DNA of 64,000 nt from Planomonospora sp. ID67723 (GTDB lineage Bacteria > Actinomycetota > Actinomycetes > Streptosporangiales > Streptosporangiaceae), in the NCBI RefSeq assembly GCF_015711605.1, contig NZ_JABTEZ010000001.1, positions 400,001 through 464,000 of the forward strand, given 5' to 3'. The notes below the pieces were generated by a model. The model was not told where the DNA came from. It did not search any database and worked only from the letters and a program-made list of their open reading frames with translations. Below, one piece after another: positions 15,851 through 22,216 of this stretch (position 1 is its first letter; each line of letters starts with the position of its first letter). The position numbers and the translations under genes are program-made.

Positions 15851-15890
15851 TACTGACGGGTAGCATTGTCGGTAAGGTTACTGACCAGTA
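15851..15890. promoter_or_regulatory. Duplicated palindromic operator between the Nramp-like gene and fadE5
   Basis: TACTGACCAGTA (15879-15890) is a 12-bp palindrome with a two-base centre. A degenerate copy, TACTGACGGGTA, lies at 15851-15862. Both share GGTTACTGAC and are offset by 28 bp. The layout resembles TetR-family operators of fatty-acid genes in actinobacteria. No TetR gene is adjacent, so the cognate regulator would be encoded elsewhere. The site lies 42-81 bp before the fadE5 ATG. Confidence 0.6.
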
Positions 15891-15931
15891 CGTCCCGAGT
15901 CCCGGTTCCCCGGTTTCAAGGAGCAGAGCCC

Positions 15932-17755
15932 ATGGGCCACTACAAGAGCAACATCCGTGACCTGGAGTTCAATCTCTTCGAGATGTTCGGACGCCGGGAC
16001 ATCCTGGGCACCGGCCGTTTCGCCGAGCTCGACGAGGACATCGTCCGCAGCATGCTCGACGAGCTCAACCGCATGGCCACCGGCGTGCTCGCCGACTCCT
16101 TCGAGGAGGGTGACCGCACGCCTCCGGTGTTCGACGCCGCGACCGGCACGGTGACCATGCCCGCGGGCTTCAAGAAGTCCTTCGCCGCCTTCCGCGACGC
16201 CGGCTGGACCAACCTCGACCTGCCGGTCGAGCTGGGCGGCCCGGGTGTGCCGCGCAGCGTGGCGTGGGCGCTGGCCGAGCTGGTACTCGGCGCGAACCCG
16301 GCGATCTGGATGTACTCCAGCGGCCCCGGTTTCGCCCACATCCTGCACACCATCGGCAACGACGAGCAGAAGCGCTTCGCCGAGCTGGCCATCGAGCGGC
16401 AGTGGGGCTCCACCATGGTGCTCACCGAGCCCGACGCGGGCTCCGACGTGGGCGCCGGCCGGGCCAAGGCCGTGCAGCAGCCCGACGGCACCTGGCACAT
16501 CGAGGGCGTCAAGCGCTTCATCACCAGCGCCGAGCACGACATGGCCGAGAACATCTTCCACATGGTGCTGGCCCGCCCCGAGGGCCACGGCCCCGGCACC
16601 AAGGGCCTGTCGATGTTCCTGGTGCCCAAGTACCACGTGAACCTGGAGACCGGCGAGCTCGGCGAGCGCAACGGCGTCTACGTCACCAACGTCGAGAAGA
16701 AGATGGGCCTTAAGGTCTCCACGACCTGCGAGCTCACCTTCGGCGACAAGCACCCGGCGATCGGCACGCTGGTCGGCGACGTGCACGAGGGCATCAAGCA
16801 GATGTTCATGGTCATCGAGCAGGCCCGCATGATGGTCGGCACGAAGGCCATCGCGACCCTGTCCACCGGCTACCTGAACGCGCTGGAGTACGCCAAGTCC
16901 CGCGTGCAGGGCGCCGACCTGACCCAGATGGCCGACAAGTCCGCCCCGCGCGTGACCGTCACCCACCACCCGGACGTGCGCCGCGAGCTCATGCTCCAGA
17001 AGGCCTACGCCGAGGGCATGCGGGCGCTGGTACTGCTGACGGCCACCTACCAGGACTCCGTGCAGATCGCCGAGTTCGATGGTCGCCGCGACGAGCACGC
17101 GGAGGCGATGAACGACCTGCTGCTCCCGCTGGTCAAGGGTGTCGGCTCCGAGCGCTCCTACGAGATGCTCGCCCGCTCCCTGCAGACCCTGGGCGGCTCC
17201 GGCTACCTGCAGGAGTACCCGATCGAGCAGTACATCCGGGACGCCAAGATCGACTCCCTCTACGAGGGCACCACCGCGATCCAGGGCCTGGACCTGTTCT
17301 TCCGCAAGGTCCTGCGCAACCAGGGCGCCGCCCTCGGCTCGCTCTACACCGACATCAAGGCCTTCGCCGCCTCCGAGGCGGGCAACGGCCGCCTGAAGGA
17401 GGAGCGCAAGCTCCTCGGCGAGGCCGCCGACGAGGTCAAGGCCATGGCCGACACCATGGCCGGCTGGGCGCTCGGCTCGCTGGAGAACGCCAAGGAGGTC
17501 TACAAGGTCGGCCTCAACACCACCCGGTTCCTGCTCGCCCTGGGTGACCTGGTCATCGGCTGGCTGCTCCTGCGCCAGGCCGAGATCGCCCTGGCCGCGC
17601 TGGGCTCCTCCGATGAGGACAAGGCCTTCTACACCGGCAAGGTGGCCGCCGCGTCCTTCTTCGCCCAGACCGTCCTTCCCCGCCTGTCCGCCGAGCGCCG
17701 CATCCTCGCGGCCACCGGCCAGGACCTGATGGAGCTTCCGGAGGACGCCTTCTAG
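15932..17755 (+). CDS. fadE5: Acyl-CoA dehydrogenase, FadE5-type
   Basis: The 607-aa protein aligns end to end, from memory, with Mycobacterium tuberculosis FadE5 (611 aa). It starts [17 protein letters not shown] and ends [10 protein letters not shown]. The FAD/substrate loop [16 protein letters not shown] and the catalytic base Glu445 in [10 protein letters not shown] are intact. Members have an extra C-terminal helical domain compared with the usual 380-aa enzymes. It should catalyse the first step of fatty-acid beta-oxidation with broad chain-length specificity. AAGGAG (15918-15923) is eight bases from the ATG. The duplicated palindrome upstream suggests repression, and a strong hairpin follows the gene. 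Confidence 0.93.
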
Positions 17756-17808: not shown

Positions 17809-17841
17809 GAGGGGCGGTCCCGTGTCACGGGACCGCCCCTC
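17809..17841 (+). terminator. Strong hairpin terminator after fadE5
   Basis: A 15-bp perfect stem (17809-17823 with 17827-17841) with a three-base loop, followed by GTTCGTTCC, separates fadE5 from the Nudix operon promoter. Confidence 0.85.
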
Positions 17842-17886: not shown

Positions 17887-17935
17887 TTGACACACCCCCT
17901 CGTTATTCTCATACTGAGATTATCTCAATCTGAGA
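17887..17935 (+). promoter_or_regulatory. Promoter with two tandem 13-bp palindromic operators
   Basis: TTGACA (17887-17892) is followed after 17 bp by CATACT (17910-17915). Two palindromes of form TCTCA-N3-TGAGA, TCTCATACTGAGA (17907-17919) and TCTCAATCTGAGA (17923-17935), lie three bases apart (16-bp period). They cover the -10 and the expected transcription start. Binding there would block transcription. The first gene encodes a Nudix protein with an NrtR-type winged helix, so autoregulation is the simplest reading. Confidence 0.8.
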
Positions 17936-17945
17936 AGGACGGGCG

Positions 17946-18680
17946 ATGAGTGAGAGTGAGTACCTGGCGGCTTACGACCCGCGCGCCTTCCCGGCGGTCG
18001 CCGTGACGGTCGACGTGGTGGCGCTCACGATCATCGGGGGCGTTCTGCACGTGCTTCTGGTCGAGCGGGGGGAACCGCCCTACGCGGGGCGGTGGGCGCT
18101 GCCGGGCGGGTTCATCCGGCCCGGCGAGGACCTCGACCGGGCCGCGGCCAGGGAACTGGCCGAGGAGACCGGGATGACCCAGCGGGTGCACATCGAGCAG
18201 CTCGCCAGCTACGGGGCGCCGGACCGGGATCCGCGGATGCGGATCGTCTCGGTCTCCTACCTGGCCTTCGCACCCGACCTGCCCGACCCGCAGGCGGGAT
18301 CCGACGCCGCCGACGCCGCGTGGTACGGCATCGACCGCCTGCCGAAACTGGCCTTCGACCACGAGCGGATCCTGGGCCACGCCCTGGAGCGCGCGCGGGC
18401 CAAGCTGGAGTACACCCCGCTCGCCACCGCGTTCGTGGGCGAGACGTTCACCATCTCCGAGCTCCGCCGGGTCTACGAGGCGGTGTGGGGGCTCCCGCTG
18501 CACGCGGGCAACTTCCACCGCAAGATCCTTTCGGTTCCGGGGTTCGTGGAGAGCACCGGGGAGACCACCGAGAGCGGCGGGAGCAGAGGCGGCCCCCGGG
18601 CCAAGCTCTACCGCGCGGGAGACGCCCGGCTCCTCCATCCCGCTCTGCTGCGACCAGAGCGGGAGGAGGAGATCCGGTGA
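17946..18680 (+). CDS. Nudix hydrolase with C-terminal winged helix (NrtR-like regulator)
   Basis: The 244-aa protein has a complete Nudix box at about residues 55-77 (G-x5-E-x7-RE-L-x-EE-x-G-M). A C-terminal segment (about 155-210, from EYTPLATAFVGETFTISELRRVYEAV) resembles the winged helix of NrtR-type regulators. NrtR proteins bind ADP-ribose and repress NAD-metabolism genes. The intact box leaves hydrolase activity possible. The last ~35 residues are a Gly/Ser/Arg-rich tail. AGAAGGACGGGCG precedes the ATG. The promoter carries two palindromes this protein probably binds. It is the first gene of a four-gene operon, and its stop overlaps the next GTG. No NAD gene is present in the operon, so the signal may be another nucleotide derivative. 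Confidence 0.85.
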   Translation: MSESEYLAAYDPRAFPAVAVTVDVVALTIIGGVLHVLLVERGEPPYAGRWALPGGFIRPGEDLDRAAARELAEETGMTQRVHIEQLASYGAPDRDPRMRIVSVSYLAFAPDLPDPQAGSDAADAAWYGIDRLPKLAFDHERILGHALERARAKLEYTPLATAFVGETFTISELRRVYEAVWGLPLHAGNFHRKILSVPGFVESTGETTESGGSRGGPRAKLYRAGDARLLHPALLRPEREEEIR

Positions 18681-19732
18681 CCACCACGGCCCAGGCGATC
18701 GCCCTCGTGAACGCCGCCGCGACTCCGGGGGACCTGTTCGGCGGGGACACCCCAGAACGGGTCTACCGGCGGCTCGCGCGGCTCCTCCACCCCGACCTCG
18801 CCCCCGGGGCGGAAGCCGCGGCGGCCTTCGTCAGGCTGGCCGAGCTGTGGGCGACCCGCGGCGCCGCCGCCCGTCACGGGAGCGCGGACGGCGGACGCGA
18901 GCATGCCGGCGGCCACCGGAGCGGGGGCCCGGGAGCCGGGAGCGTCATCACCACCCGGCGGGGGACCTACCGGATCGGCGGGGTCTTCCGCAGGGGCGCC
19001 ACGGCCGTGCTGTACGAGAGCGGCGGCGACACCCTGCTCAAGCTGCCCCTCCGGCCGGCCGACAACGACCTCATGCGGCGCGAGGCCGAAGCGCTCAGGA
19101 CGGTCGAGCGCGAGGGCGATCCGCGGCTGCTGCCGTACGTGCCCCGGCTGGTGGAGTCGTTCCGCTACCGCTCGGACGGGGCGGAACGGCAGGCGAACGT
19201 GGTCAGCCGGGCACCGGACGGGTTCCTGACGCTGGCCGAGATCGCGCGGCGGCGCTCACCGCTGGACCCCCGGGACGCGGCGTGGATCTGGCGGCGGCTG
19301 CTGGTGGCGATCGGCACGGCCCACCGGGCCGGGGTCGTGCACGGCGCCGTCTTCGGCCACCACGTGCTGGTCCACCCGATCGAGCACGGTCTGATCCTCG
19401 TCGACTGGAGCCAGTCGGTCCCGCTCGGCACCCCGCTGACCGCCCTGGTGTCCCGGCACCGCGACGACTACCCGCCCGGCGTGTTCACCGGTGAGCCGGC
19501 CGCCGAGGCCCTCGACATCCGGCTCGCCACCCGATGCGTCGCCGCGCTCATGGGCGTCCGTGCGGGCGCGGGCGCCACCGCCGGGACCGGCCGCGTCCCC
19601 TCGCGGATGCGCGCCTTCGTCCGGGGGAGCATGCTGAGCCCTCCGCGCGACGCCTGGCGGCTCCTGGAGGAGCTCGACGAGCTCCTCGGCGACCTCTACG
19701 GCCCCCGGAAGTACCGGCCCCTCGACCTGTAG
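18677..19732 (+). CDS. J-domain-like / protein kinase-like (probable pseudokinase) fusion protein
   Basis: The 351-aa protein begins with a DnaJ-like helical hairpin (about 25-60) that keeps the HPD tripeptide (38-40). A Gly/His-rich linker (about 61-90) leads to a protein-kinase fold (about 95-350). A VAIK-type lysine (Lys122 in LLKLP) and an acidic residue in the next helix are present. The HRD motif is replaced by HGA (222-224), followed by HHVLVH, and DFG by DWS (243-245). The catalytic Asp is therefore missing, so it may bind nucleotide without phosphorylating. The GTG start overlaps the Nudix stop (GTGA). The HPD loop suggests recruitment of a DnaK partner. The combination is unusual and its role is unknown. 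Confidence 0.75.
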   Translation: MTTTAQAIALVNAAATPGDLFGGDTPERVYRRLARLLHPDLAPGAEAAAAFVRLAELWATRGAAARHGSADGGREHAGGHRSGGPGAGSVITTRRGTYRIGGVFRRGATAVLYESGGDTLLKLPLRPADNDLMRREAEALRTVEREGDPRLLPYVPRLVESFRYRSDGAERQANVVSRAPDGFLTLAEIARRRSPLDPRDAAWIWRRLLVAIGTAHRAGVVHGAVFGHHVLVHPIEHGLILVDWSQSVPLGTPLTALVSRHRDDYPPGVFTGEPAAEALDIRLATRCVAALMGVRAGAGATAGTGRVPSRMRAFVRGSMLSPPRDAWRLLEELDELLGDLYGPRKYRPLDL

Positions 19733-19764
19733 CGATCCCCTCCACCCCGAAAGGGAGTTCCCCA

Positions 19765-20730
19765 ATGGGAAGCGGAATCTGGTCCACCGACGTCTACTCC
19801 GCCGCCAAGCACTTCCGCGACGCCAGCGGTGCCAGCGCCTTCGCCCACAGCGACAGCGGCGCCCGGACGGTACACGACGATCTCAATCCCTACGGCGTGG
19901 CGGTCCGCGAGAGCCGCGACTCCGCCGAGCACCCGGTCTCCCTGGCCATCGCCGTCCTCTTCGACGTCACCGGCTCGATGGGCGGCGTGCCCCGCGCGCT
20001 GCAGAGCAGGCTCCCGGACCTGCTCGGCCTGCTGCTCCGCAAGGGATATGCCACCGACCCGCAGATCCTGTTCGGCGCGATCGGCGACGCCACCTGCGAC
20101 CGGGCGCCGCTGCAGATCGGGCAGTTCGAGTCCGACAACCGGATGGACGAGCACCTGGGCAACATCCTGTTGGAGGGCGGGGGCGGCGGCCAGATGAGAG
20201 AGTCCTACGAGCTCGCGATGTACTTCATGGCCAGGCACACCTCGATCGACTGCTTCGAGAAGCGGGGCCGCCGGGGCTACCTGTTCATCATCGGTGACGA
20301 GCTGCCCTACCCGAGGGTGAAGCGGCAGGAGGCCGGCGGCGTCATCGGCGACCGGCTGGAGCGCGACGTCCCGATCGAGGAGATCGTCACCGAGCTGACC
20401 CGGATGTACGACGTCTACTACATCATCCCCGCCGGCGCCTGCCACGCCGGCAACGGCGACGTGCTCGCCGTCTGGCGCAGGCTGCTCGGGCAGAACGTGC
20501 TGGAGCTGGACGACCTGGGAGCGGTCTGCGAGACCATCGCGCTCACCGTCGGCCTCGGCGAGGACGCCATCGGTCTCGACGAGGGCCTCAGCGACCTGGA
20601 CGAGCTCGGCTCAGCCGCCGGGGCCTCGGTGGGCAGGGCGCTGGCCAAGCTGGACCGCGGCACGCTCGTGGTCGGCGACGGCCTCGGCCACGAGCACGAC
20701 CACGGCGGAAGCGGGGTGACACGGCTATGA
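19765..20730 (+). CDS. von Willebrand factor A (vWA) domain protein
   Basis: The 321-aa protein has a vWA fold with an intact metal-ion-dependent adhesion site: Asp67, Thr69 and Ser71 in FDVTGSM. Downstream strands include LFIIGDELPYP and YDVYYIIPAG. The C-terminus ends in a short His/acidic stretch (GHEHDHGG). There is no signal peptide or membrane helix, so it is cytoplasmic. vWA proteins commonly act as Mg2+-dependent adaptors in stress, tellurite-resistance or conflict systems. AAGGGAG lies before the ATG. Its stop overlaps the start of the PurA-like gene (ATGA), so both are coexpressed. Confidence 0.82.
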   Translation: MGSGIWSTDVYSAAKHFRDASGASAFAHSDSGARTVHDDLNPYGVAVRESRDSAEHPVSLAIAVLFDVTGSMGGVPRALQSRLPDLLGLLLRKGYATDPQILFGAIGDATCDRAPLQIGQFESDNRMDEHLGNILLEGGGGGQMRESYELAMYFMARHTSIDCFEKRGRRGYLFIIGDELPYPRVKRQEAGGVIGDRLERDVPIEEIVTELTRMYDVYYIIPAGACHAGNGDVLAVWRRLLGQNVLELDDLGAVCETIALTVGLGEDAIGLDEGLSDLDELGSAAGASVGRALAKLDRGTLVVGDGLGHEHDHGGSGVTRL

Positions 20731-22034
20731 GAGACCACGTCATCGTCGTCGACCTCGGGTACGGCGACGCGGGCAAGGGGGGCGTCGTGGACTGGCTCTG
20801 CGCGCAGGGCGGCGTGACGGCCGTGGTCAGGTTCAACGGAGGAGCACAGGCGGGCCACAACGTCGTCCTGCCCGACGGGCGGCACCACACCTTCTCCCAG
20901 TTCGGCTCCGGCACCCTGCGCGGCGTGCCGACGCACCTGTCCCGGTATGTGGTGGTCGATCCCTTCGCCCTCTCGGCCGAGGCCGATCACCTGCGCCGGA
21001 TCGGCGTCCCGCATCCCTACAGCATGATCACCATCGACCGCGAAGCCCTGCTCGCCACGCCGTACCACATCGAGGCCGGGCGGGCCCGCGAGCTGGAGCG
21101 CGGCGAGGGCCGGCACGGATCCTGCGGGATGGGCGTCGGCGAGGTGATGGCCTACGCCCTGGAGAACCCGTTCGTGGCGCCCAAGGTCGGCGACTGCGAG
21201 CGGCCCGGCCTGCTGGCGCAGAAGCTCGGCCTGCTGCGCGAGCGGCTCGGGGTGACGGGACCGCCGGTCGCCGACTGCGTGGCCGCCTACCGGGCGTTCG
21301 CCGACCGGGCGACCCTGGTCGACCCGTCCCACGTCACGGAGCTGCTGCGCAGGCGGCCCGTGGTCTTCGAGGGCGCCCAGGGGGTCCTGCTCGACGAGTG
21401 GCACGGCTTCCACCCCCACACGACCTGGAGCACGACGACCTTCGACAACGCGTTCTCCCTGCTGGAGGGGGCGCACGCCGTACGGCTCGGCGTGCTGCGC
21501 ACCTACACTCCGCGGCACGGGCCGGGCCCGCTGGTCACCGAGGACCCCCGGCTGCGCCTTCCCGAGCCGCACAACAGGACGGGCCGCTGGCAGGGCCCGT
21601 TCAGGACCGGGCACTTCGACGCCGTCGCCCACCGCTACGCGCTGGCGGCGGCGGGCGGGGTGGACGCCCTGGCCCTCACCCACCTGGACGCGCCGGTGTC
21701 GCGGCTGTGCGACTCCTACGACATCGGCGAGCTGCCGGTGGGCAGGAAGGGCGACCTGGACGGCCAGGCCGAGCTGACCGCCCGGCTGGGCCGCGCCCGC
21801 CCGCACTACACCGACGGGATCACCGACTGGCCCTCGGCGGTCTCGGAGGCCCTGGGCGTGCGCGTCTGGCTCGGCTCCTCCGGTCCGACCGCCGCGGCCA
21901 AGGCGCTGATCGCCTCGACCCCGACGCGCCGCAAGGGCCTGCACGTGATGGTGAGCGCCCGATCGCTTCGGGAGCTGCCGGGATCCCGGCCCCACCCCTG
22001 CCCCGAACCGCCCGGCCACGGGATCTCCGCCTGA
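20727..22034 (+). CDS. Divergent adenylosuccinate synthetase homologue (PurA paralogue)
   Basis: The 435-aa protein is a full-length PurA homologue by length and order of motifs but is clearly diverged. The GTP-site motif GDEGKGK reads GDAGKGG (13-19): catalytic Asp14 and Lys17 remain, while the Glu and last Lys are lost. His44 (AGH) matches the catalytic His. FEGAQGVLLD is conserved. The aspartate/IMP loop around TGRWQGPFRTGHFD differs from the usual TTGRRRR-type motif by an insertion. It may ligate an amino acid to a purine nucleotide other than IMP. It is last in the Nudix operon rather than with pur genes, which argues for an accessory role. A true housekeeping purA is expected elsewhere. 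Confidence 0.8.
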   Translation: MRDHVIVVDLGYGDAGKGGVVDWLCAQGGVTAVVRFNGGAQAGHNVVLPDGRHHTFSQFGSGTLRGVPTHLSRYVVVDPFALSAEADHLRRIGVPHPYSMITIDREALLATPYHIEAGRARELERGEGRHGSCGMGVGEVMAYALENPFVAPKVGDCERPGLLAQKLGLLRERLGVTGPPVADCVAAYRAFADRATLVDPSHVTELLRRRPVVFEGAQGVLLDEWHGFHPHTTWSTTTFDNAFSLLEGAHAVRLGVLRTYTPRHGPGPLVTEDPRLRLPEPHNRTGRWQGPFRTGHFDAVAHRYALAAAGGVDALALTHLDAPVSRLCDSYDIGELPVGRKGDLDGQAELTARLGRARPHYTDGITDWPSAVSEALGVRVWLGSSGPTAAAKALIASTPTRRKGLHVMVSARSLRELPGSRPHPCPEPPGHGISA

Positions 22035-22153: not shown

Positions 22154-22172
22154 GGCCGTGCGCAGCACGGCC
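22154..22172 (+). terminator. Hairpin after the Nudix operon
   Basis: GGCCGTGC-GCA-GCACGGCC is a perfect 8-bp stem with a three-base loop. It lies 120 bp after the PurA-like stop and overlaps the first unit of the 13-bp repeat. It could terminate both the operon and the convergent Dabb gene. Confidence 0.5.
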
Positions 22173-22216
22173 CATGAGCACGGCCCATCACCACAGCCCA
22201 TGAGCACGCCCCATCA
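22165..22216. repeat. 13-bp tandem repeat, four units
   Basis: Units start at 22165, 22178, 22191 and 22204. The consensus is GCACGGCCCATGA, with the last bases alternating TGA and TCA. It lies between two convergent genes and ends just before the Dabb stop codon. Confidence 0.85.

Follow-up and report, generated by a model that had tools for sequence, protein, structure and literature searches.

A four-gene actinobacterial operon around an altered purine-making enzyme: an apparently undescribed gene system with a possible link to NAD or ADP-ribose

Closest described systems and the locus in comparison

In the NrtR-regulated NAD+ operons, a Nudix and winged-helix autoregulator adjoins its target operon, and ADP-ribose is reported to free the M. 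smegmatis NrtR, whose Nudix box is degenerate and inactive, from DNA carrying GTTTTCGA-N7-TCGAAAAC (passages of PMC6800001). A Nudix-HTH repressor accompanied by a vWA protein is also a feature of the ARG-centred systems, described as predicted ADP-ribose conflict operons in passages of PMC9503650. Phages contribute two further points of comparison: PurZ and DgsS of the Z-genome phages, which are PurA-superfamily members, and the NAD+ salvage/NARP operons.

We analysed a window of 64,000 nucleotides from Planomonospora sp. ID67723, in which positions 17946-22034 encode an NrtR-type Nudix regulator, a J-domain pseudokinase, a vWA-like protein and a PurA paralogue, confirming what had been noticed from the letters alone. 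Its adjoining autoregulator resembles that of the NrtR-regulated NAD+ operons, but unlike them the host operon contains no NAD gene, its operator is TTCTCA-N3-TGAGA in tandem, and its Nudix box is intact. In contrast to the ARG systems, as the passages of PMC9503650 present them, the four genes include neither an ADP-ribosylglycohydrolase nor a phosphatase, and a PurA-like protein and a J-pseudokinase are found instead; the four window proteins did not match the ADP-ribosylglycohydrolase family, and the terms "adenylosuccin" and "PurA" are absent from the main text of that paper. Nor do the four host genes contain the NARP-type set (NAMPT/Namat plus NMNAT or Adps). Full-text searches of open-licence PMC papers listed none recognised as describing the gene set. 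The operon, centred on an altered purine-making enzyme, is found across many actinobacteria and on some plasmids, and large phages carry its last three genes; it therefore has the appearance of an undescribed gene system, with a possible link to NAD or ADP-ribose.

Operon layout, predicted operator and the four proteins

The features of the locus are as follows:

15866-17755: acyl-CoA dehydrogenase gene, preceding the operon
17809-17841, no strand: perfect 16-bp inverted repeat upstream of the operon
17887-17915, plus strand: sigma70-like promoter TTGACA-17-CATACT, the sole promoter detected (shuffle mean 0.0, n = 50)
17906-17936, no strand: tandem palindromic operator TTCTCANNNTGAGANNNTCTCANNNTGAGAA, 16-bp period, 0 mismatches here
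17946-18680, plus strand: NrtR-type Nudix and winged-helix regulator, start ATG, Nudix box intact
18677-19732, plus strand: J domain fused to a kinase-fold domain (JK), start GTG, HPD kept, HGA
19765-20730, plus strand: vWA-like protein, start ATG, MIDAS-like DxTxS, PHROG 2971
20727-22034, plus strand: PurA-fold paralogue, start ATG, aspartate/IMP-phosphate site rebuilt, PHROG 1211
22154-22185: weak inverted repeat downstream of the operon

The sequence-only reading had proposed four genes behind a single promoter, with two 4-bp overlaps and one 32-bp gap, and the overlap and gap lengths proved exact. All genes lie on the plus strand, the overlaps fall at 18677-18680 (NrtR/JK) and 20727-20730 (vWA-like/PurA-like), the gap is 19733-19764, and one promoter was found. 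The terminators it had placed on both flanks were not recovered, as the terminator scan returned none and the flanks hold only the two inverted repeats. The upstream one lacks a T-run and probably marks where the transcript of the neighbouring acyl-CoA dehydrogenase gene ends.

The −10 box of the promoter sits within the tandem operator, which is the predicted NrtR site. Of 101 actinobacterial loci, 97 have a similar site (≤6 of 22 mismatches) close to the start of NrtR; the 101 combine two partly overlapping draws, and at least three contigs of equal length in both (L032/L064, L031/L062, L033/L086) are counted twice among them. Seven of the 101 are exceptions (L037, L053, L056, L061, L065, L071, L079): in L037 the NrtR start is misplaced and the site is present, in L053 NrtR is located downstream, in L071 a better site precedes the vWA gene, and in L079 the site precedes JK. 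Among two plasmid loci and three viral loci examined, none showed the operator (≥7 of 22 mismatches). In the genome, the 29-bp operator core occurs in one place at ≤3 mismatches of its 20 specified bases (reversed control, 0); our search for a regulon sharing the operator found no second site at this threshold. The single genomic operator site and the lack of an NAD gene in the host operon are observations that count against the mechanism proposed below.

The regulator matches NUDIX (3e-20) and NrtR_WHD (2.5e-13), both above cut-off, but falls below the NCBIfam equivalog cut-off for the ADPR-responsive NtrR (126.8 vs 400 bits). Judged by these scores it is a Nudix-winged-helix relative, and the cut-off does not support NAD-type equivalog status. 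Its Nudix glutamates are intact, as they are in 93/101 actinobacterial loci, which suggests that NrtR could hydrolyse its ligand. ADP-ribose is the ligand expected from the family, and another one may be used: a relative, AraR, is described as serving arabinose use, so that NrtR-type proteins are able to sense other ligands. The genome has a second NrtR-type winged helix at C1:1132016, around which no NAD family was found among six ORFs (E 1e-5; one matchless; the ORF calls missed the NrtR gene itself). The proposal that the Nudix protein senses or clears a ligand is plausible in view of the family match, the intact glutamates and the conserved operator.

In the JK protein, a Kdo-type kinase domain was matched at 3.7e-7. 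DnaJ was matched at 0.012, below the Pfam cut-off, and the family profile matched J domains of known structure at 1.2e-5 and 8.7e-5. The HPD motif is present in the window protein, and its Asp in 99/101 actinobacterial rows; in 19/35 viral-contig rows the position is a gap. The HxD catalytic aspartate, the mark of an active protein kinase, is replaced by Ala (HGA) in the window protein and in all 101 actinobacterial rows, and is present in 2/35 viral-contig rows. By its sequence, the kinase-fold domain is a pseudokinase.

The window vWA-like protein had no match in a Pfam search. We use the vWA label because of a conserved MIDAS-like motif (D67-x-T-x-S), matches of 3/60 family members to DUF444 (best 2.2e-4), which we take to be vWA-like, and a short profile alignment with nine VWA_2 domains encoded in the same genome (41 columns, probability 79, E 1.5e-5; three controls ≤0.2). 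A PDB sequence search with the profile gave one unconvincing match (E 1.1). The protein also carries the family motifs EGGGGGQ..ESYELA and IGDE, and its PHROG (2971) is annotated as of unknown function.

The PurA-like protein matches Adenylsucc_synt at 1.5e-50 and falls short of the NCBIfam equivalog cut-offs (132.2 vs 402 bits, 91 vs 395.55). The genome has two copies, a canonical one elsewhere (611 bits) and the operon one (172 bits), which ruled out that the latter is the only PurA of the organism. As in PurA, the whole fold is present in the predicted model, and the equivalents of Asp13, Lys16, His41 and Gln224 are retained. Arg131, Arg303 and Arg305, the aspartate-binding residues of PurA, are represented by Met135, Pro291 and Phe292; the 303-305 loop is aligned with a gap, so the last two replacements are less sure. 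The place of Arg305 in this gapped loop is taken by F/W/V/L in 101/101 actinobacterial rows. Unlike in PurA, these arginines together with Asn38, Thr129, Thr301, Lys331 and Val273 have given way to other conserved residues in most members. The newly conserved residues of the rebuilt site were seen in a comparison of 227 relatives, whose 122 viral rows include contigs repeated across both viral scans. The pattern suggests an enzyme that has kept the phosphoryl-transfer residues and lost the aspartate site, and it agrees with the earlier claim that the operon makes a modified purine nucleotide or responds to one.

Spread among actinobacteria, plasmids and phages

All four genes stand in the same order in 76/80 named actinobacterial loci (best 80 of 519 relatives), so the gene order is not unique to this genome and the set is not a local accident. 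When genomes were sampled across the class, the vWA-like protein and PurA-like subfamily co-occurred in the same 27 genomes (27/296 and 27/292), and a family draw yielded the system in 33/120. Within PurA the paralogues make up a lineage of their own that goes together with vWA genes. We also searched the host loci for a fifth conserved gene, and none emerged from the incomplete ORF calling: clusters reached at most 14 genus labels, counts that are inflated because named genera and unnamed labels overlap, and many of the residual clusters were short opposite-strand frames or shared flanks. Some flanking genes do recur, for example a ~600-residue ORF under 10 genus labels.

The four-gene operon is also found on some plasmids, and the kinase-vWA-PurA trio in large phages, mycobacteriophages among them; the carriers include lytic phages. 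The full trio is present in 57/82 viral-contig groups (the second viral scan covered the best 80 of 402 relatives). Like the phage NAD+ salvage/NARP operons, seven of the 82 groups have NAMPT in the locus, five of them with the full trio (in L167, NAMPT lies 4 kb upstream); among the seven we saw one NMNAT-Nudix, two NMNAT-like genes and one weakly matched PRPP-synthetase-like gene. NrtR was found in 5/82 groups, all with NAMPT, and in none of the stretches examined in the other 77. Unlike in those operons, NAMPT was unseen in the stretch examined of 75/82 groups, 52 of which have the full trio. As a general partner NAMPT found no support in the reverse test, in which 14/15 viral loci with one phage NAMPT lacked the trio (three of the 15 loci were <8 kb). 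Among the phage neighbours no family occurred in more than two members (100 of 204 candidate ORFs examined). The rarity of NAMPT beside the trio means that the NAD link may reflect shared regulation and not shared chemistry. The phage and plasmid copies and the NAMPT neighbours, unseen by the sequence-only reading, reshaped the interpretation.

Candidate mechanism and competing explanations

We propose, tentatively and at a little short of an even chance, a self-regulated system in which sensing of an ADP-ribose-type ligand controls an enzyme adapted from PurA to another task on a 6-oxopurine nucleotide and carried on a scaffold of vWA protein and J-pseudokinase, the trio being shared with phages. 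By binding the tandem operator, within which the −10 box lies, NrtR would repress the operon, a step with good sequence support. By analogy with its family, an ADP-ribose-type nucleotide, for instance from NAD+ breakdown, would release NrtR, which could also hydrolyse the ligand and so reset. The residues suggest that the PurA-like enzyme, with no aspartate site, would use a nucleoside triphosphate to phosphorylate O6 of a 6-oxopurine nucleotide, coming from NAD+/ADP-ribose turnover or infection-altered pools, and the activated 6-phosphoryl purine would be handed to another nucleophile or released. The other two members of the trio, vWA-like protein and J-domain pseudokinase, would serve as non-catalytic scaffold or co-chaperone subunits holding or targeting the enzyme. 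Of the earlier interpretation, the separate vWA-tied lineage stands, Nudix sensing is plausible and the purine-nucleotide part is consistent; a chaperone-linked complex is suggested only by the presence of a J domain alongside a vWA-like protein. In phages the trio would aid survival of NAD+- or nucleotide-based immunity, and actinobacterial chromosomes probably acquired their form of the system from the phage pool. A more specific version is rather unlikely to hold in full: a PurA-derived enzyme that does without aspartate and makes an activated 6-phosphoryl purine on an NAD+/ADP-ribose-derived nucleotide, is run by the vWA/J-pseudokinase pair under an ADP-ribose-type switch, and represents a phage counter-immunity module domesticated at least twice by bacteria.

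Alternatively, the operon might be a host anti-phage defence in which NrtR senses infection-derived ADP-ribose, the PurA-like protein makes a toxic or signalling purine, the vWA protein and pseudokinase act as a gate, and the phage copies are counter-versions. The patchy spread (27/296 in the class draw, 33/120 in the family draw) and the homologues in phages fit it, as do the catalytically disrupted kinases and vWA proteins of conflict systems (passages of PMC7159879) and the Nudix regulators with vWA chaperones of the ARG systems (passages of PMC9503650). Yet the four genes include no nuclease, NADase or membrane effector, PADLOC matches are only weak and confined to the Nudix protein and the kinase, and the recurrent flanks are unlike a typical defence island. 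Carriage of the trio by phages, lytic ones included, also speaks against a defence operon, which we regard as unlikely.

That the enzyme supplies phage DNA with a modified purine in the manner of PurZ, and was recruited by hosts later, would agree with the superfamily membership, the phage distribution and the name of PHROG 1211, "2-aminooxy adenylosuccinate synthetase". PurZ was not the best match of the PurA-like protein among PurA-superfamily members; PurZ and DgsS are structurally more distant, and the present family differs from them in its linkage to genes for a vWA protein and a pseudokinase. We consider this origin improbable. Just as doubtful is the clearance of hypoxanthine nucleotides (IMP/dIMP/ITP) that immune systems built on deaminases, such as RADAR or Kongming, produce: IMP is the natural PurA substrate and the phage distribution is suitable, but the aspartate site that IMP re-amination would need is rebuilt, and the host loci have no recurring fifth gene such as adenylosuccinate lyase. 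That the protein is a second adenylosuccinate synthetase of the ordinary kind, sharing its regulation with unrelated stress genes, is very improbable, since its complete fold and catalytic residues are outweighed by the lost arginines, the newly conserved residues in 227 relatives, the strict vWA linkage and the canonical PurA already in the genome.

The name "PurA-like adenylosuccinate synthetase" appears in two genome announcements. Under the reading preferred here, of a self-regulated system shared with phages, such "PurA-like" and "hypothetical protein" annotations, which occur in many mycobacteriophages, in large phages and in actinobacteria of the soil, become parts of a single system open to testing: its inducer is predicted, its operator is defined, and the altered site of its enzyme points to an altered reaction. 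Should the link to NAD+/ADP-ribose hold, it would add a purine-chemistry branch to the NAD+ conflict between phages and bacteria, and would provide an example of operon movement between phages and their hosts.

Layout and conservation of the operon

The operon lies in the window (positions 400001–464000 of contig NZ_JABTEZ010000001.1; source genome 8.34 Mb), and Streptosporangium-group actinobacteria are the nearest relatives of the source genome among those fetched. The window ORFs and a promoter scan agreed with the sequence-only reading in all four gene positions, the overlaps, the gap and the promoter. The terminators that this reading had placed on both flanks were not confirmed, one strong inverted repeat being found upstream and only a weak one downstream:

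17809–17841, strong inverted repeat
17906–17936, 31-bp tandem palindrome (predicted operator), promoter −10 box inside
17946–18680, + strand, NrtR
18677–19732, + strand, J-domain pseudokinase (JK)
19765–20730, + strand, vWA-like protein
20727–22034, + strand, PurA-like protein
22154–22185, weak inverted repeat

Genome comparisons clearly showed that the four genes, as judged by homology and order, form a conserved unit. In the class-wide draws, vWA was found in 27/296 genomes and the PurA-like subfamily in 27/292 (matches above 120 bits, some as two pieces; the next match had 106 bits); both counts refer to the same 27 genomes. The complete ordered set on a single strand was present in 21 of 26 relatives, counting L055 (genome G132), where the JK and vWA frames are disrupted, shortened and overlapping, as if this copy were decaying or fused. 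Among the exceptions, L043 and L046 are cut by contig edges, NrtR was not seen in L052, the Nudix gene lies downstream in L053, and JK was not seen in L054. In the family draw, vWA occurred in 33/120 genomes (one match of E 4e-4 dropped) and PurA-like at E 1e-33 in 30/120, every one inside the vWA set; the three vWA genomes without PurA-like are G296, G334, where a contig ends, and G335, whose vWA is partial. A scan of named genomes gave 519 relatives, and 76 of the best 80 carried the four genes in order; JK was not seen in L076 and L084 nor, near contig ends, NrtR in L095 and PurA-like in L103. In neighbour clustering, 27–33 genus labels, which overlap, were reached by these four genes only.

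The active site of the PurA-like protein

The window protein was aligned with 227 relatives (101 from actinobacteria, 122 from viruses and 4 from plasmids, some contigs entering twice) and with its genome's canonical PurA; positions follow the E. coli numbering. Asp13 (224/227), Lys16 (225/227), His41 (226/227) and Gln224 (227/227), which we take to serve phosphoryl transfer, are kept, and other positions are replaced as follows.

Replacements in actinobacterial, viral and plasmid PurA-like rows
Asn38 to Gln: 100/101, 120/122, 4/4
Thr129 to Cys: 101/101, 106/122, 4/4
Thr301 to Gln: 101/101, 114/122, 4/4
Val273 to His: 227/227 overall

Arginines 131, 303 and 305 of PurA bind aspartate. The first is Met, Leu or Val in 100/101 actinobacterial rows and Lys in one, viral rows being varied. 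In the 303–305 loop, which aligns with a gap, Arg303 persists in 12/101 actinobacterial and 11/122 viral rows, and position 305 is Phe, Trp, Val or Leu in 101/101 actinobacterial rows. Structure titles of PurA mutants agree with these roles: that of R303L names GDP and 6-phosphoryl-IMP and leaves hadacidin unnamed, unlike those of K16Q and R143L. At the level of aligned residues, the PurA-like site is rebuilt, and the kinase motif of JK is dead. The residue pattern, read with these roles, suggests that the phosphorylation half-reaction is retained and the aspartate half lost. The corresponding family, PHROG 1211, is named "2-aminooxy adenylosuccinate synthetase", as phage records repeat; no paper using this name turned up in a text search.

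Phages, plasmids and the history of the system

Homologues showed that the system is spread across phages, plasmids and chromosomes. The 207 phage records with vWA comprise 188 from Mycobacterium, 10 from Rhizobium, 6 from Vibrio and 3 others. Phage Erdmann carries consecutively a kinase, vWA, one small gene and a "PurA-like adenylosuccinate synthetase", and the Vibrio and Rhizobium phages examined have vWA and PurA-like without JK. In Vibrio phage phiKT1024 (L184:9038-16911), NADAR, vWA, PurA-like, an exonuclease and TROVE lie within 8 kb, JK not being seen in this stretch. In Rhizobium phage RHph_TM30 (L185:3918-11251), genes for a HAD hydrolase, a ComF-like PRTase and a Nudix protein lie ahead of vWA and PurA-like; these upstream genes are reminiscent of the nucleoside-metabolite genes of Ter systems.

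Viral-contig scans (47 loci plus the best 80 of 402) gave 82 groups at 95% identity, of which 57 hold the full trio of JK, vWA and PurA-like.

Gene content of the 82 viral groups
Exactly the trio: 52
vWA and PurA-like: 16
Trio, NrtR and NAMPT: 4
The same plus NMNAT-Nudix: 1
JK and vWA: 3
PurA-like only: 3
NAMPT, vWA and PurA-like: 2
JK and PurA-like: 1

Among 21 plasmid records with vWA, five were examined by profile: the Agrobacterium and Rhodococcus plasmids have NrtR and the trio, the Acetobacter plasmid has the trio and an NrtR match split across two frames, PurA-like was not seen in the Rhodovulum plasmid, and NrtR was not seen in the Variovorax plasmid.

In a 75-row quick tree, whose root is unsure because the single outgroup sits on a long branch, actinobacterial rows form one set (support 96) inside viral diversity. 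This set also contains the Rhodococcus plasmid and five IMG/VR contigs (L136–L140), which are either prophages or host DNA in viral bins. In a 38-row tree, the plasmid copies from alphaproteobacteria group with those of Rhizobium and Vibrio phages (support 100), and the grouping of all bacterial rows was rejected (AU p 0.0002, long branches present). It follows from these placements and the rejection that the genes passed between viruses and bacteria at least twice, the likely direction being from phage to host.

Regulation and proposed mechanism

The predicted operator, with the consensus GTTnTTCTCAnanNGAGAnnnaCTCAnnnTGAGAAngAC, was found to be conserved in the 101 loci compared, which come from partly overlapping draws. 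A site with at most 6/22 mismatches lies near the NrtR start in 97/101 loci, and elsewhere in the same loci in 7/101; the NrtR-proximal site is the best of its locus in 94/101. Among the other seven, four Streptosporangium loci (L056:7939, L061:7939, L065:7846, L071:7953) have a second, better operator directly before vWA, which would divide the operon into two regulated halves, and in Actinoplanes italicus NrtR stands apart and the operator precedes JK. These exceptions indicate that the site follows the genes.

The operator is unlike the mycobacterial NrtR box described in PMC6800001. The mycobacterial NrtR is described there as having a degenerate Nudix box without activity, whereas the Nudix glutamates are intact in 93/101 actinobacterial loci here; they are degenerate in three plasmid rows. 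A second NrtR-type winged helix is encoded in the source genome (G000:C1:1132016; L272, L274), and no NAD family was recognised among its six surrounding ORFs.

A link to NAD+ is suggested by the NrtR family itself, by NAMPT on the same strand in all five NrtR-bearing viral groups of the 82 (stretches of up to 8 kb per side), and by one weakly matched NARP1-like pair. Viral contig L205 has NrtR, NAMPT, vWA, PurA-like, JK and NMNAT-like in about 7 kb. In viral contig L253 (3690-9134), vWA, a small gene, NAMPT-like, PRPP-synthetase-like (a weak match) and PurA-like stand in a row, the two inner enzymes resembling the NARP1 pair. Two results weaken the link: 75/82 groups show no NAMPT nearby, and in the reverse test with the NAMPT of L205 the trio appeared in only 1/15 viral loci, namely that same contig.

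The system is almost certainly real. In the mechanism we tentatively favour, and hold to be somewhat doubtful as a whole, NrtR would repress the operon, an ADP-ribose-type inducer would act on this control, the PurA-like enzyme would carry out a changed purine-nucleotide reaction, and vWA and JK may serve as a scaffold. None of the known systems compared fits; ARG-centred operons (Nudix regulator with vWA chaperone) are the closest in logic but have no PurA-like enzyme. Conservatively, what is new here is a PurA subfamily in a phage-shared operon predicted to be under NrtR control.
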